This document shows positions 19,811-25,366 of a stretch of DNA of 25,366 nt, in pieces. The position numbers and the translations under genes are program-made. Below the pieces are notes generated by a model. The model was not told the origin of the DNA and ran no database searches. It was given only the letters and a program-made list of their open reading frames with translations. The DNA is taken from the IMG/VR virus record IMGVR_UViG_3300027797_000126, positions 1 to 25,366 of that record; one strand, given 5' to 3'. The DNA is from a virus. Positions within the stretch are counted from its first letter, which is position 1. Every line of letters begins with the position of its first letter.

Positions 19811-21592
19811 ATGGCATTTAAACTCTGTAATATAACTGTGAGAAATTTCCTATCAGTGGGAAATCAAACACAGGCAGTTGACTTTGATAAAGAACATCTT
19901 ACATTAGTACTTGGGTCAAATTTAGATCTAGGTGGTGACGATACTGGATCTAGGAATGGCACGGGGAAAACCACTATCATCAATGCGTTAAGTTATGCAT
20001 TATATGGGCAAGCTCTAACAAATATTCGAAAAGAAAACTTAATTAACAAAACTAACGGTAAGGGAATGTTGGTCACTGTTGAGTTTGAAAAGAATAATAC
20101 CAAATATCGTATTGAAAGAGGACGAAAACCTAATATACTTAAATTGTTCGTTAATGACACAGAACTAAAAATTGATGAAGAAGATGATAGTCAGGGAGAT
20201 AGTAGAGAAACTCAGAAATCCATTGAACAAATGATGGAAATGAGTCATACTATGTTCAAACACTTAGTAGCACTTAATACCTATACTGAGCCATTCCTTT
20301 CAATGAAGGCTGCTGATCAACGTGAAGTTATTGAACAACTGCTAGGAATAACATTGTTATCCGAAAAAGCAGAAATTCTTAAACTAGCAATTAAAGAAAG
20401 CAAAGATTCTATTCAAATAGAAACGGTTAAAATTGAAGCTGTAAAGAATGCCAATAGTAATGTACAAAAAAGTATAGATAGTCTTAAGATTAAAAGTTCA
20501 GCATGGGAATCTAAGAAAGAAACAGACATAGAAAATCTAGGTCGAGCAATGATGAGATTAGAAAATGTTGACATTGAAACAGAAATAATCTCTCATGGCC
20601 TCCTTAAACTATGGGTCAACAACGAAATTAAAATTAAAAATCTTAATAAACAACAGGCAACATTGGAATCTGCTATCGGTCAGGCTGAAAAAGCAGTTAA
20701 AAAATGTGATAAAGAACTTGTTAGTTTGTCTGACAAAACATGCCATGCATGTGGACAAGAACTTCACGATCATAAACATAAAGAAATGACCGCAATTGCT
20801 GAACAGCAGCTAGTCGACGCAACCAAATACTTTGATAAAGTGACTCAAGATTTTACCAAAATTATTGAAGAGATTAGTATAATTGGAAAACAACCCCATC
20901 GACCTCAAACATTTTATGATACAGAAGCAGAAGCCCTAGGTCATAAAAACAATTTGGATGGTTTAGAAAAGAACTTAACAAGTAAAATAGACGAACAAAA
21001 TCCATATGAAGAGCAGATTCAAGAATTAAATAATACAGCTATACAAGAAGTTGATTGGAACATTGTAAACTTATTAATTAAACTCCAAGATCATCAGGTG
21101 TTCCTATATAAACTGCTAACTAATAAAGATAGTTTTATCCGTAAAAAGATTATTGATCAAAATCTAAGTTATCTGAATAAGAGATTAAGTTATTACATTG
21201 ACAAGTTAGGATTGCCACATCGTGTAATTTTTCAAAATGACCTTACAGTTGAAATTACCCAACTAGGACAAGATTTAGATTTTGATAATCTAAGTCGAGG
21301 TGAACGGAACAGATTAATACTTAGTATGAGTTTTGCATTTAGAGATGTATGGGAAGGATTGTATCACCCTATTAATTTATTGTTTATTGATGAACTAATA
21401 GATGCTGGAATGGATGCAGCCGGAGTTGAATCAGCATTAGCAGTATTGAAAAAAATGGCTAGAGAGAGAAATAAGAATATATACTTAATAAGTCATAAAG
21501 ATGAACTCATAGGACGAGTGAACAATGTACTTAGAGTAATTAAAGAAAACGGTTTTACCAGCTATAACAACAATGTAGACTATGTTGAGTGA
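19811..21592 (+). CDS. 46: Recombination endonuclease subunit gp46 (Rad50-like ATPase)
   Basis: The 593-residue protein is an SMC/Rad50-type ATPase, partner of gp47. The Walker A motif is GSRNGTGKTT at 46-55. A long coiled-coil region with a short zinc hook C311-H-A-C314 in the middle joins dimers. The ABC signature LSRGERNR is at 494-501, Walker B LLFIDEL at 523-529, and the switch histidine H562 is in YLISHKDEL. The length is close to T4 gp46 (560). Nothing is missing, so it should be active. The downstream small gene overlaps its last 11 bases. Confidence 0.96.
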   Translation: MAFKLCNITVRNFLSVGNQTQAVDFDKEHLTLVLGSNLDLGGDDTGSRNGTGKTTIINALSYALYGQALTNIRKENLINKTNGKGMLVTVEFEKNNTKYRIERGRKPNILKLFVNDTELKIDEEDDSQGDSRETQKSIEQMMEMSHTMFKHLVALNTYTEPFLSMKAADQREVIEQLLGITLLSEKAEILKLAIKESKDSIQIETVKIEAVKNANSNVQKSIDSLKIKSSAWESKKETDIENLGRAMMRLENVDIETEIISHGLLKLWVNNEIKIKNLNKQQATLESAIGQAEKAVKKCDKELVSLSDKTCHACGQELHDHKHKEMTAIAEQQLVDATKYFDKVTQDFTKIIEEISIIGKQPHRPQTFYDTEAEALGHKNNLDGLEKNLTSKIDEQNPYEEQIQELNNTAIQEVDWNIVNLLIKLQDHQVFLYKLLTNKDSFIRKKIIDQNLSYLNKRLSYYIDKLGLPHRVIFQNDLTVEITQLGQDLDFDNLSRGERNRLILSMSFAFRDVWEGLYHPINLLFIDELIDAGMDAAGVESALAVLKKMARERNKNIYLISHKDELIGRVNNVLRVIKENGFTSYNNNVDYVE

Positions 21593-21893
21593 TAATATAA
21601 AACAGTATAGAGAATTGTATTCGCAGTTAGTAAGTGCATTTGCAGAGTTGCATAATCAAAATTTAATTTTTGTACAAACTACTGGTAGATCTCCCGGATA
21701 CTTATGTAGAAGAGAATTAAGAAATGTAGAAACGTTAGCAAAACAACTAAAACAACAAAGTAAATTAGTATGTAAAGAACAATTAGCTAATATAAGATTA
21801 GTAAAAAAAGAAAAGGCAAGATTAAAAGCATTGCCAAAAAAACGTGGAAGACCACCTAAAGGAAAAACAAATGTCATCAACACAACAAATTAA
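21582..21893 (+). CDS. Small basic protein with AT-hook
   Basis: The 103-residue protein overlaps the end of gp46 by 11 bases in another frame, so translational coupling is likely. Its N-terminal 40 residues (IKQYRELYSQLVSAFAELHN) look helical, the middle is Lys/Arg-rich, and the C-terminus has KKRGRPPKGK (about residues 86-95), a textbook AT-hook that binds the minor groove of AT-rich DNA. I do not recognise the family as a whole. Because the phage itself is AT-rich, the protein may bind phage DNA, but that is inference. It overlaps the next gene by 23 bases. Confidence 0.75.
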   Translation: MLSDNIKQYRELYSQLVSAFAELHNQNLIFVQTTGRSPGYLCRRELRNVETLAKQLKQQSKLVCKEQLANIRLVKKEKARLKALPKKRGRPPKGKTNVINTTN

Positions 21894-22065
21894 AGATTGC
21901 ATGGACGGATTTTTAGCAGAAGATGCAAAATTCTCAGCAGGCAATGCAGCTGCCGGTACTCGTGCTCGCAAAGCATTAGGAGAGCTAGCCAAAGCTGTTA
22001 AAGCACGCCGTAACGAAATTACTGCTGAAAAGAACGCTCGTAAAGAAGCTAAGTTAGCAAAATAA
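21871..22065 (+). CDS. Small histone H1/Hc1-like protein
   Basis: The 64-residue protein starts at the ATG at 21871 (MSSTQQIKD), chosen over an in-frame ATG at 21844 because GGA sits nine bases before it and the family resemblance begins there. It is rich in Ala, Lys and Arg. The stretch GNAAAGTRARKALGELAKAV resembles the N-terminal region of the chlamydial histone-like Hc1 proteins (GNKAA-x-R-V-R pattern); similar short proteins occur in marine T4-like phages. It may compact or organise DNA. It follows directly on the AT-hook gene, making two candidate DNA-binding proteins behind the recombination pair. Confidence 0.75.
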   Translation: MSSTQQIKDCMDGFLAEDAKFSAGNAAAGTRARKALGELAKAVKARRNEITAEKNARKEAKLAK

Positions 22066-22066
22066 A

Positions 22067-22795
22067 ATGAATAAAGCGTTAGAACATTATCGTGACAACG
22101 GATTTAAAATTGTAGAGGGATGGGTTGAGGATGAGCTATTTACTACAATTGATTACTTTAATAATTTACCAATAAACAAAACTGGTGGGGTTTGTGAGAT
22201 TGGGGTCCATCATGGTAAATTATTTTTATTGTTAAATCAAATAACTGAACTTCAAGACAAATCATATGCAGTAGATGTGTTTGAATCACAGTCACTTAAT
22301 ATAGATAATTCTGGCTGCGGAAATATACATTATTTTAAGCATAATTTATTAAATTATGATGTACATCAAGGACAAAATACAACTATTATACAAGGTGACT
22401 CTACTGATTCTAAACTACAACTTGATAAAATAATTGAACCAGGTTCTTTAAGATTTATGTCTATTGATGGCGGCCATACTGCAATCCATACTATGAATGA
22501 TTTGAAACTTGCAAGTAATCTTATCAGTAATGAAGGTATAGTAATACTCGACGACATTCTCAATCATCGATGGATAGGAGTGTTAGAAGGGTTAGTAAAA
22601 TTCTTACAAACAACTCCAACATTAGTTCCTATAATGATGGGGCATAATAAATTATATTTGGTTAAATTAAGTTATCAAAACTACTATTACGAAGCATGTA
22701 GTAAAATAGGCTTACCCGGAGTATGTAGCACTAATAGATTTTTTGGATTTAATATTGCAACTTGGCCGTATTGGCCAAAAGTAATGCCATGGTAA
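22067..22795 (+). CDS. Class I methyltransferase-fold protein
   Basis: The 242-residue protein has a Rossmann-type methyltransferase core. GVCEIGVHHGKLFLLL (about residues 41-56) is the glycine-rich SAM-binding motif I, AVDVFESQ the acidic second motif, and RFMSIDGGHTAIHTMNDLKL followed by GIVILDD the central strands and loops. The IDGGH/ILDD pattern suits the methyltransferase 24 group, which methylates small molecules or sugars; no DNA-methylase motif such as DPPY or NPPY is seen. The substrate is unknown. It starts one base after the previous stop, so it belongs to the same transcription unit. Confidence 0.7.
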   Translation: MNKALEHYRDNGFKIVEGWVEDELFTTIDYFNNLPINKTGGVCEIGVHHGKLFLLLNQITELQDKSYAVDVFESQSLNIDNSGCGNIHYFKHNLLNYDVHQGQNTTIIQGDSTDSKLQLDKIIEPGSLRFMSIDGGHTAIHTMNDLKLASNLISNEGIVILDDILNHRWIGVLEGLVKFLQTTPTLVPIMMGHNKLYLVKLSYQNYYYEACSKIGLPGVCSTNRFFGFNIATWPYWPKVMPW

Positions 22796-22802
22796 TATTA
22801 TA

Positions 22803-23231
22803 ATGTTATGGACTTATAAAGGTCAAGAAGTTATTGAACTACCAGAAGATTGTATTGGGTATGTATATATTATCACAAATTTAACAAATAATAAAAAGTA
22901 TATAGGAAAGAAACTTGCAAAGTTTGCAAAAACTACCTATAAGACTATAAAATTAAAGAATGGTACAAAAAAGAAAAAGAAAATCAGATCTAAAGTAGAT
23001 TCAGATTGGAAAGAATATTGGGGTAGTAGCCCCAATCTTCAGGCAGATATAAACACCTTAGGCAAAGAAAATTTCACAAGAGAGATATTGCACTACTGCA
23101 AAAGCAAAGCAGAAACATCATACGTTGAGGCCCGCGAACAATTCGACCGAAAAGTATTAGAATCAAATGAATATTATAACGGACAGATCTCAGTCCGTGT
23201 CCATGGCTCTCACATTATAAACAAAATTTAA
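22803..23231 (+). CDS. GIY-YIG nuclease-domain protein
   Basis: The 142-residue protein begins its domain with GYVYIITNLTNNKKYIGKK (about residues 19-37), the GIY-YIG pair. After a basic insertion (GTKKKKKIRSK) come DWKEYWGSSPNLQ, LGKENFTREIL and the candidate metal-binding acid in YVEAREQFD. The tail YYNGQISVRVHGSHI is typical of small GIY-YIG proteins of T4-like phages. The usual active-site arginine is not obvious. It could be a homing endonuclease, a DNA repair or exclusion nuclease, or inactive. It is the last gene before the structured region, and part of its 3' end (ACGGAC/GTCCGT at 23179-23198) can form a hairpin. Confidence 0.8.
   Translation: MLWTYKGQEVIELPEDCIGYVYIITNLTNNKKYIGKKLAKFAKTTYKTIKLKNGTKKKKKIRSKVDSDWKEYWGSSPNLQADINTLGKENFTREILHYCKSKAETSYVEAREQFDRKVLESNEYYNGQISVRVHGSHIINKI
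23216..23223 (+). promoter_or_regulatory. Late-promoter-like box before the structured region
   Basis: TATAAACA matches seven of eight bases of the T4 late box TATAAATA. A start a few bases downstream would fall at about 23230, just before the first strong stem at 23234. It lies inside the 3' end of the GIY-YIG gene. Confidence 0.4.
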
Positions 23232-23655
23232 TTGGTATAAAGCTCGCACCTGCTAAGTTCTGGTGCCCGTATACCTGGATCTAGGATCACAGGGAGGGAA
23301 ATCTCTTGCCGATAAGAGTACTCATCTACTACCCGAAAGGATGAAGATCGTAAAATGCTTACGGTTTAGATGTTTGAAGATAGAAAATAAGCAAAATGAA
23401 GGGCTAGAGACGCCCTACGTAAGCAAGTATGTTAGTGTATATTTGTTTACCGCCGCTGGATAAAGACACTGCTCGTGGTACAGGCCAACCGCCACTGTAA
23501 TGCAGTAACACTAAGTGACATATGTTCGACTCGAATAATGTTCTTTGCCCTGCTCGGGCAAAGTGTGACTGAACGATCTGAATAATATTAATTCTTTCTT
23601 CGAAAGAAACAATTGCTCTGAGTGCAAACGAAAGAGCAAATGAGCGCACGCTCAT
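23232..23655 (+). ncRNA. Putative large structured RNA, family unknown
   Basis: This is the only gene-free stretch over 300 bases and it looks richer in G+C than its flanks. Perfect or near-perfect hairpins follow one another: GGTATA/TATACC (23234/23270) with inner GCACC/GGTGC (23246/23262); GATC/GATC (23278/23285); CTCTT/AAGAG (23303/23314); TCAT/ATGA (23322/23341) around a CC-GAAA-GG tetraloop (23333-23340); a 9-bp stem with GU pairs (23345-23353/23359-23367); AGGGC/GCCCT (23400/23412); GTAAGCAA/TTGTTTAC (23419/23443); ACTGC/GCAGT (23468/23502) with GTGG/CCAC inside; CTTTGCCC/GGGCAAAG (23543/23556); TTCTTTC/GAAAGAA (23592/23602); TTGCTCT/AGAGCAA (23613/23633); ATGAGC/GCTCAT (23640/23650). 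No tRNA, tmRNA, RNase P or intron core is evident. Strand is inferred from the gene direction; ends are approximate. Confidence 0.65.
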
Positions 23656-23663
23656 TATAAATA
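23656..23663 (+). promoter_or_regulatory. T4-type late promoter
   Basis: TATAAATA is a perfect match to the T4 late -10 box, 23 bases before the ATG at 23687, with TAGGA (23675-23679) as ribosome site between. The gp55 encoded in this window would be the sigma factor that reads it. It starts directly at the foot of the last hairpin of the structured region. Confidence 0.75.
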
Positions 23664-23686
23664 ACAAATACAGTTAGGATACTTAT

Positions 23687-25069
23687 ATGGACATGCATCA
23701 ATTATCTGCTAGATTAAGACAAATAGAAAATTCTCCTAAGCAATCTATATTTGAAAATATAGGGCAAGGCGATCAATACTTCCGTACTTGGGAAAGGGAT
23801 ATTCATCCTATACTATGTGAAGTTGCATTACAACCTGATCAAATTCAACAATTATTTAAAAGCATAGAAACTAGTGCCGGCCGTAGTATGCTAGGTAAAG
23901 CTGGTGATGCAGTGGGTGCAGCTAAAGATAAAATCAGTGATGTGTGGTTTAATAAATTTGGAGGTATGCTACAAAGTAGTGCTCCTGTCCAAGCATTTGA
24001 TAAAAAGTTTGAAGAAATTAAAGCAAGTATTGCTGCAAAGAATCCCCAGTTAGCAGCCAAATTAGCCAAGTACGGCGAGTTTGCAAAAGAAAATCCTAAC
24101 CTACACAAGTTCTTGTTGGCCATTGCTGGTTCAGCCGCAGCCGCATTAGGTGTAGCAGTAGCAGGTGGTATTGGTGCAGGAGCACTAGCAGTTGGAACAG
24201 GAACAGGTATTGCCGTGGGTATTGTTAACATTGCTGACCGTTTACTACAAGGTCAAGCGGCATCAACTGCTGTTGGCCGTGGGGCAACCGCAGGAGCAGT
24301 TGCTGGTATTACAGCAGGTGCTATGGCAAAACTTGGCGGTTGGTTAGCAGGCCTGCGTGAAAAATCAATACCAATTGGAGACACAGGAATCGAAAAAGTT
24401 ACTTACCAAGCTACAAGGACTATTAGAGGGCCCGGAATGGAAATGAGTGATATGGTTCAAGGATTTAATATTGCTGCTAATCCTGCAGAAGCAAGTGCAG
24501 TGCGAACTGCAATGAATGCAATTAAAAATGGTGACGTTTCAGCATTTAGGGATCTACAAGATGTTGCTAAAATAATAACCAGTAAAGAATATAAAGAAGG
24601 TATACAGGCTACAATTGGTGCAGCTAAACAAGTTGCGTTTAATAATGATAGTTTATTACAATGGATTAACGGGTTGACTCAGGTAGCAACAACAGCAGGT
24701 GGTGCTGTAGCTGGACAAGCAGCAGGTGCTACGGGTGAAAAGCCAGTAGCAGAATCACTAAACAGAAATCAACTCAACGAATTGTTTGGAATCACGGGCA
24801 ACAAGGTAGATGCTAATACATTAGAGAAAGCATGGAAGAAAGCAGGCAGTCCAATGGACAGCGAAGAAGTTGCCAAGATATTACAAAGTGCAGGTGTAGA
24901 TCCTGCTGTGATATCAAAAGCATACGCAGATATGTCATTGCCAGCACCAGCAGGACAAGTTGAACCAACAATGAATGCAGAACCGGTAAATATCAAAGAC
25001 ATGCTTGATCAGATATTAGCACTATCTCCTGCAGATCAACAACAAGTATTAGCATATCTTAAGAAATAA
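23687..25069 (+). CDS. Gly/Ala-rich putative virion protein with glycine-zipper segment
   Basis: I do not recognise this 460-residue protein. Residues 1-65 are a mixed helical head (MDMHQLSARLRQIENSPKQ). Residues about 145-225 are a long run of Ala, Gly and Val (SAAAALGVAVAGGIGAGALA and on to TAGAVAGITAGAMAKLGG) with small residues every third or fourth place, as in glycine-zipper membrane-inserting segments. A second short one follows (TTAGGAVAGQAAGATG). The C-terminus (DMLDQILALSPADQQQVLAY) is a conserved-looking helix, preceded by VAKILQSAGVDPAVISKAY. No signal peptide is seen. A perfect late promoter points to a late, structural product. I infer an internal or ejected virion protein; a membrane protein is the alternative. 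Confidence 0.7.
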   Translation: MDMHQLSARLRQIENSPKQSIFENIGQGDQYFRTWERDIHPILCEVALQPDQIQQLFKSIETSAGRSMLGKAGDAVGAAKDKISDVWFNKFGGMLQSSAPVQAFDKKFEEIKASIAAKNPQLAAKLAKYGEFAKENPNLHKFLLAIAGSAAAALGVAVAGGIGAGALAVGTGTGIAVGIVNIADRLLQGQAASTAVGRGATAGAVAGITAGAMAKLGGWLAGLREKSIPIGDTGIEKVTYQATRTIRGPGMEMSDMVQGFNIAANPAEASAVRTAMNAIKNGDVSAFRDLQDVAKIITSKEYKEGIQATIGAAKQVAFNNDSLLQWINGLTQVATTAGGAVAGQAAGATGEKPVAESLNRNQLNELFGITGNKVDANTLEKAWKKAGSPMDSEEVAKILQSAGVDPAVISKAYADMSLPAPAGQVEPTMNAEPVNIKDMLDQILALSPADQQQVLAYLKK

Positions 25070-25080
25070 CAGGAACTTAT

Positions 25081-25366
25081 ATGAAAATTTCTCAACTCGT
25101 AGCAACTAAAAAATATACTCAATACTATGAGAGTGTTGCTAACAAATTGCCTAGAGGTATTAAAACTCAGCAACAACTGTTAAATCTTGGATACCGTGTA
25201 GCAGTTGAAGATCTCGGATTAGCAAAAGCAAAAACATTGGATGAAAACTTTGCTGCTAAGTTGGTTAATTCATATCATAAACAATGTATTGACGAGGGAA
25301 TTGGATCATTCTTAGGAAAGGCAGCAGGTAATGTTGTAGGTGCAGCAAACGCAGCTGGCCGTGGTA
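25081..25366 (+). CDS. Gly/Ala-rich protein, C-terminus beyond window
   Basis: An ATG at 25081 with AGGA nine bases before it opens 95 codons without a stop to the right edge. The start reads MKISQLVATKKYTQYYESVA, a mostly helical head. Near residues 76-95 it reaches SFLGKAAGNVVGAANAAGRG, which resembles MLGKAGDAVGAAKD near residue 70 of the preceding protein. The two genes are 11 bases apart and share this motif, so they may be related or act together. The function is unknown. Confidence 0.7.
   Translation, partial: MKISQLVATKKYTQYYESVANKLPRGIKTQQQLLNLGYRVAVEDLGLAKAKTLDENFAAKLVNSYHKQCIDEGIGSFLGKAAGNVVGAANAAGRG

Follow-up and report, generated by a model that had tools for sequence, protein, structure and literature searches.

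The window analysed here, a stretch of 25,366 nucleotides from IMG/VR record IMGVR_UViG_3300027797_000126, represents part of the genome of a T4-like myophage. Baseplate wedge genes lie on the minus strand and are followed on the plus strand by genes for a late sigma factor (gp55-like), gp47 (SbcD), gp46 (SbcC) and two small basic proteins. Next come a methyltransferase, a SegE-type GIY-YIG endonuclease (22803-23231, plus strand; PF19835, E 7e-33), a stretch free of open reading frames, and a 460-aa ORF at 23687. The ORF-free stretch of about 425 nt follows the stop codon of the GIY-YIG gene (23231) and lies ahead of the ORF that starts at 23687.

The two small basic proteins (21582-21893 and 21844-22065) are kept beside the GIY-YIG gene and the RNA described below in about 70 contigs. 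One has an AT-hook-like tail (KKRGRPPKGK) and the other is rich in lysine and alanine; they are possibly nucleic-acid binders. The methyltransferase gene (Methyltransf_24, 22067-22795), which lies between the small ORFs and the GIY-YIG gene, is found in only a few related contigs. PHROGs (phrog_447) and many records of phages give GIY-YIG proteins of the 22803-23231 type the name “NAD synthetase”, although Pfam assigns them to the SegE GIY-YIG family. Downstream, 23687-25069 and 25081-25366 encode two related Gly/Ala-rich proteins with no Pfam match.

A first-pass annotation had described the ORF-free stretch, which it found to be without a credible gene, as a candidate for a large, selected, multi-hairpin RNA of about 420 nt. 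The evidence is now stronger than that claim. The RNA spans 23231-23655 on the plus strand, with an uncertainty of about 15 nt at its 5' end (23231), and its length and position are conserved in about 200 phage contigs, with covariation over most of its length. In all 96 homologues the reading frames across the stretch are closed, each of them with 6-10 stops per 435 nt. The annotation had also seen no sign of a tRNA, tmRNA, RNase P or intron. This agrees with ARAGORN, which finds 0 tRNA or tmRNA genes in the window, and with Rfam, whose covariance models for ribozymes such as RNase P, for group I and II introns and for HNH-associated RNA give no match there at gathering threshold. Its appeal to G+C-rich composition as a hallmark of RNA structure carries little weight, since the gene that follows has an equally high G+C content.

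The RNA can be identified by an Rfam covariance-model search, which had been proposed as a check. Positions 23241-23375 (plus strand) match model positions 1-141 of RF01718, Polynucleobacter-1, at 108.9 bits, with a gathering cutoff of 37 bits (Rfam 15; the model is 141 nt long). This is the sole Rfam match at gathering threshold in the whole window. A scan of 23150-23700 with cmscan up to E 5 gave nothing else credible, and the GOLLD and ROOL models in particular found no match, so that the suggested kinship with those RNAs gains no support. The alternative suggestion, a new class, fails because the 5' third of the RNA is RF01718. Judged by this match and by conservation beyond it, the RNA is the full-length form of RF01718, which covers its 5' third only; its real length is three times that of the Rfam model.

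Polynucleobacter-1 was described in a single survey (Weinberg et al. 2010, PMC2864571), whose entry lists it as an RNA (“y”) and as cis-regulatory (“y”), from Burkholderiales and fresh water. No paper beyond that survey was found under the name or the accession. The likeness is close over the 5' 135 nt, which match the full model far above cutoff, and extends to the freshwater, Burkholderiales setting. The RNA described here differs from the model in having two pseudoknots called PK1 and PK2, a third called P8, and a pair of twin motifs, all absent from the model. It also differs from the family as labelled, being common in T4-like phages and not a leader there. A 141-nt fragment listed as a candidate cis-regulator is thereby extended to a pseudoknotted RNA of about 425 nt, found in abundant freshwater phages and in islands of their probable host genus.

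In IMG/VR, the complete RNA is present in about 200 phage contigs, at a single locus. A pattern from its 5' part matches at least 119 contigs and a pattern from its 3' part at least 120, and in the aligned phage contigs conservation runs through the whole stretch as far as the terminal hairpin. Exactly one copy is present in each of 19 contigs from the 5'-pattern set. Rfam does not, as was first supposed, overlook most of the divergent members: RF01718 was present in all 45 tested contigs that had been chosen by the 3' pattern alone (58-123 bits).

The order of the phage locus is constant: gp55, gp47, gp46, small ORFs, GIY-YIG, RNA. The RNA has the SegE-type GIY-YIG gene, syntenic in 115 loci, on one side and variable genes on the other. 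Directly 3' of the RNA, genes are replaced especially often, with 12 families represented among 48 contigs. In one contig (L036), ORFs of 459 and 152 aa are inserted in the interval between GIY-YIG and RNA, from about -2300 to -350 relative to the RNA. Contigs with the RNA are up to 365 kb long, and the phage lineage is therefore in part jumbo. The nearest gp46 proteins of isolates, from phages of the PA5oct group, are about 50% identical. A blastn search of INPHARED with the RNA gave no match. Nor was the RNA found beside relatives of the GIY-YIG gene in nine isolate phages or at gp46 in five large ones, and a model of the phage RNA's middle domain (R1) found no match in these 14 genomes. The phages that carry the RNA are uncultured T4-like, partly jumbo, freshwater myophages.

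The structure was derived from 96 representatives less than 90% identical, aligned with MAFFT. Covariation was assessed by our own re-implementation of an R-scape-like test, with a null simulated on the tree of the representatives (40 simulations behind the E-values). This comparison of homologues, also proposed by the first-pass annotation, yields 23 column pairs that covary at E<0.05. Twenty of these are canonical; almost every canonical pair belongs to a proposed helix or pseudoknot, and the majority lie beyond the 141 nt of Rfam. There are more G.U than A.C cells (130:39 and 191:46), which identifies the plus strand as the RNA. Single-sequence folding, with z of -2.8 on the plus strand and -3.5 on the minus strand, is modest evidence. 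The comparison of homologues is decisive: it indicates that the region encodes one structured plus-strand RNA, and the predicted structure is well supported.

The predicted fold divides into three domains, established by the alignment and pair counts and all on the plus strand. Pairing is seen in 90.5% of the cells of the 5' domain, compared with 34-43% when partners are slid. Its first element is the 5' strand of PK1 (23231-23236), which pairs with the loop of P4 at 23308-23313; pairing holds in 87.8% of cells, and 91 changes are two-sided. Hairpin P2 (23246-23266; strands 23246-50 and 23262-66) is 99.4% paired, with covariation at E<0.05. The 5'-domain pair count also supports P3 (23274-23293), which is followed by the conserved GGGANGGAAA, and P4 (23303-23318), whose loop GCCGAU is the 3' strand of PK1. 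P5 (23323-23372; strands 23323-28 and 23367-72) encloses P5a (23333-40) and P5b (23347-65); it is 96.2% paired and covaries at E<0.05.

The middle domain is a double pseudoknot. Over 35 named pairs in six helices and 59 sequences, 94.1% of cells pair, compared with 31-52% with partners slid, and there are 413 two-sided changes against 121 when shuffled, a number reached by 0 of 500 shuffles. P6 (23400-23416) is supported by the covariation test and this pair count. P7 (23419-23450) is a 12-bp hairpin in which all 12 pairs show two-sided change and five covary at E<0.05. It contains the stem GTAAGCAA/TTGTTTAC, which the first-pass annotation had named and which proves to be strongly covarying. 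The loop of P7 (23432-37) is the 5' strand of PK2, and the 3' strand (23509-23514) pairs with it in 98.9% of cells; five of the six pairs change on both sides, and 23436/23510 reaches E<0.05. P8 (23455-23489; strands 23455-59 and 23485-89) forms a pseudoknot across P9 and P10 and is 93.8% paired, with 23457/23487 and 23458/23486 at E<0.05. P9 (23469-23505; strands 23469-72 and 23502-05) encloses P10 (23475-78 and 23492-95) and is 100% paired in the 59 sequences.

The 3' domain contains the twin motifs, P12, P14 and P15. P12 (23543-23563), the hairpin CTTTGCCC/GGGCAAAG flanked by the twin motifs, is 87.4% paired, with two-sided change at three pairs. Another of the stems named earlier, it is conserved; the third, TTCTTTC/GAAAGAA (P13), belongs to a variable stretch, is not conserved and has no support. 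P14 (23613-23639), which has an inner GC-GNNA-GC, is recognised from the alignment and pair count. For P12 and P14 the support is mainly conservation, covariation being partial. The terminal hairpin P15 (23639-23655) has four pairs at E<0.05 in the consensus register.

Like the three pseudoknots and the bacterial copies described below, the twin motifs go beyond what had been noticed earlier. Copy 1 (23527-23540, plus strand) reads xyACUC[n1n2]AUAAU and copy 2 (23574-23587, plus strand) reads xyAUCU[n1n2]AUAAU. The two copies are identical at 23533/80, 34/81, 36/83, 37/84 and 39/86 in 96 of 96 sequences. They are coupled by identity and not by complementarity: for example, GG occurs with GG, AG with AG, GA with GA and GC with GC. 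Some 20 independent changes on the tree affect these five position pairs, always in both copies and never in one alone. The xy positions are coupled as well, with exceptions (identical in 78/96 and 86/96). The adjoining letters CUC and UCU remain distinct, which argues against gene conversion. Within the RNA no strand complementary to the motif was seen to co-vary with it, a search of the surrounding 3 kb gave no complement, and extra copies of the motif were not enriched in 12 contigs. Repeats coupled by identity are a rare evolutionary signature that points to a partner. A shared partner outside the locus would be the most economical explanation of their coupling.

Homologues of the RNA also occur in bacterial chromosomes, and the idea that it is confined to phages was dropped once RF01718 matches appeared there. 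From 398 scanned genomes of the phylum the search narrowed to a genus with genomes of about 2 Mb, in which RF01718 exceeds its cutoff in 10 of 101 genomes, in some of them twice. Within the same family it is found in 6 of 399 genomes, all of 1.8-2.2 Mb. The genus is very probably Polynucleobacter, and we infer that it is also the host of the phages with the RNA. The bacterial copies differ at the motif used for pattern scanning and were found by covariance model only; a pattern scan of GTDB contigs gave 19 matches, about the chance expectation, without RNA context.

The island RNAs, about 15 in number, maintain the order of elements of the phage RNA over some 440 nt, with diverged sequence. 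They give no match to R1, the model of the phage middle domain, so their homology rests on RF01718 and the shared motif order. This order is PK1 (CUACUG/CAGUAG and CUACCG/CGGUAG), a P7-like stem, the twin motif, a hairpin ACUGAGCC/GGCUCAGU, GUGUAGGUUGAAUCU, P14 and P15. The loop of the P7-like stem, CCACUUA, pairs with UAAGUGG in the manner of PK2. The island twin tetramers (AGCG, AGAG, GGAG, AUCA or AACA) have letters unlike those of the phage RNAs. They are identical within 11 of 14 RNAs and differ between two loci of one genome; in the other three they are unequal (GGCG/AGCG in one, AACA/UCCA in two).

An island consists of a DUF6641 gene, the RNA, variable cargo, a 188-aa FimB-like tyrosine recombinase, two unknown proteins and an AAA protein. 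The AAA protein is most like phage clamp loaders and is 26-32% identical to those of the phages with the RNA. Several loci also encode a 424-aa integrase-like protein. The loci on bacterial chromosomes (L259-L271 and L273-L275) resemble a family of phage satellites or integrative elements, and the suggestion is that the island may be a phage satellite.

The mode of action can be approached through the genes that follow the RNA. In most phage loci a same-strand gene begins about 30-60 nt past the RNA. Directly after the terminal hairpin lies TATAAATA (23656-23663, plus strand), a T4-type late promoter for the downstream gene that is outside the RNA. Of 147 loci whose downstream gene is on the same strand, 84 have it in this position, whereas 0 of 26 with a convergent next gene do; it was not found elsewhere from -900 to +400 around the RNA. 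In the 26 convergent loci there is no downstream gene in the direction of the RNA. The comparison of loci establishes that the RNA is positionally autonomous from its neighbours, and an independent, trans-acting RNA appears to be the simplest reading. The best explanation overall, to which we give a probability of roughly 0.78, would be an autonomous, trans-acting, structured RNA of about 425 nt, the full-length RF01718, present in freshwater myophages and in diverged form in probable Polynucleobacter islands. It offers a testable structure and a culturable organism with a copy in its genome.

Four other explanations can be weighed against this one. The RNA may self-assemble into a particle that works in the manner of GOLLD and ROOL, with the twin motifs as intermolecular contacts. 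GOLLD and ROOL, which form RNA-only cages (PMC12286853), are likewise large, phage-borne, multi-pseudoknot RNAs of unknown function, and no obligate protein partner is known for the RNA described here. Phage ICP1, a virulent phage, makes a very abundant non-coding transcript of about 800 nt (PMC7567579), similarly from a gap without ORFs; it differs in length and host, and the comparison is by description and not by sequence. Against a particle, the RNA has only about 425 nt, an architecture other than that of GOLLD and ROOL, no covariance-model relation to them and no tRNA close to it in the window. Coupling by identity is moreover not what complementary kissing contacts from one copy to another would produce. 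A particle is therefore unlikely.

Somewhat less probable is that the RNA belongs to a GIY-YIG mobile cassette, as a homing-endonuclease-associated RNA working with the adjoining SegE-type protein. In almost every phage locus the GIY-YIG gene immediately precedes the RNA. However, the synteny is fixed (gp55-gp47-gp46 and onward) and not that of a hopping element, about eight loci have other ORFs between the two, relatives of the GIY-YIG gene in nine isolate phages lack such an RNA, and no GIY-YIG gene lies beside the island RNAs. Just as improbable is an element that acts as DNA, with the direct repeats as sites of recombination or replication and the conserved gene anchoring the exchange of cargo. 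The paired direct repeats, the variable cargo directly downstream in phages and islands, and the FimB-like recombinase of the islands would fit such an element. It does not account for covariation of the RNA type, with its G.U asymmetry and its three pseudoknots, nor for ACUC and AUCU staying distinct as the repeats co-vary, which is not expected from gene conversion or slippage; further repeat copies are not enriched in the contigs either.

Least probable is a riboswitch-like leader of the downstream gene, which the 2010 listing and the nearby same-strand gene favour, since some loci have only a convergent gene, a late promoter often separates RNA and gene, and the first downstream gene comes from 12 unrelated families among 48 representatives; on this arrangement the published label “cis-regulatory” is not borne out in the phages.

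If the RNA does act in trans, the twin motifs could be two copies of one specificity site. A single element-specific partner (protein, trans RNA or DNA) would then read both copies, and the motif pair would be matched within each RNA and different between phage and island RNAs. The RNA may in this way carry a duplicated “address” of 4 to 8 nt, both copies matching, that prevents cross-talk between phages and islands within the host genus. This proposal is tentative and less likely than not. Were it true, the address would be a programmable-like RNA specificity system common to large phages and satellite-like islands. A sub-threshold match to RF01718 (25.8 bits) in a further contig (L248:1501-1656, minus strand) lies beside an ORF (1806-2240) like the DUF6641 protein of the islands, and is probably a very diverged member of the RNA family.
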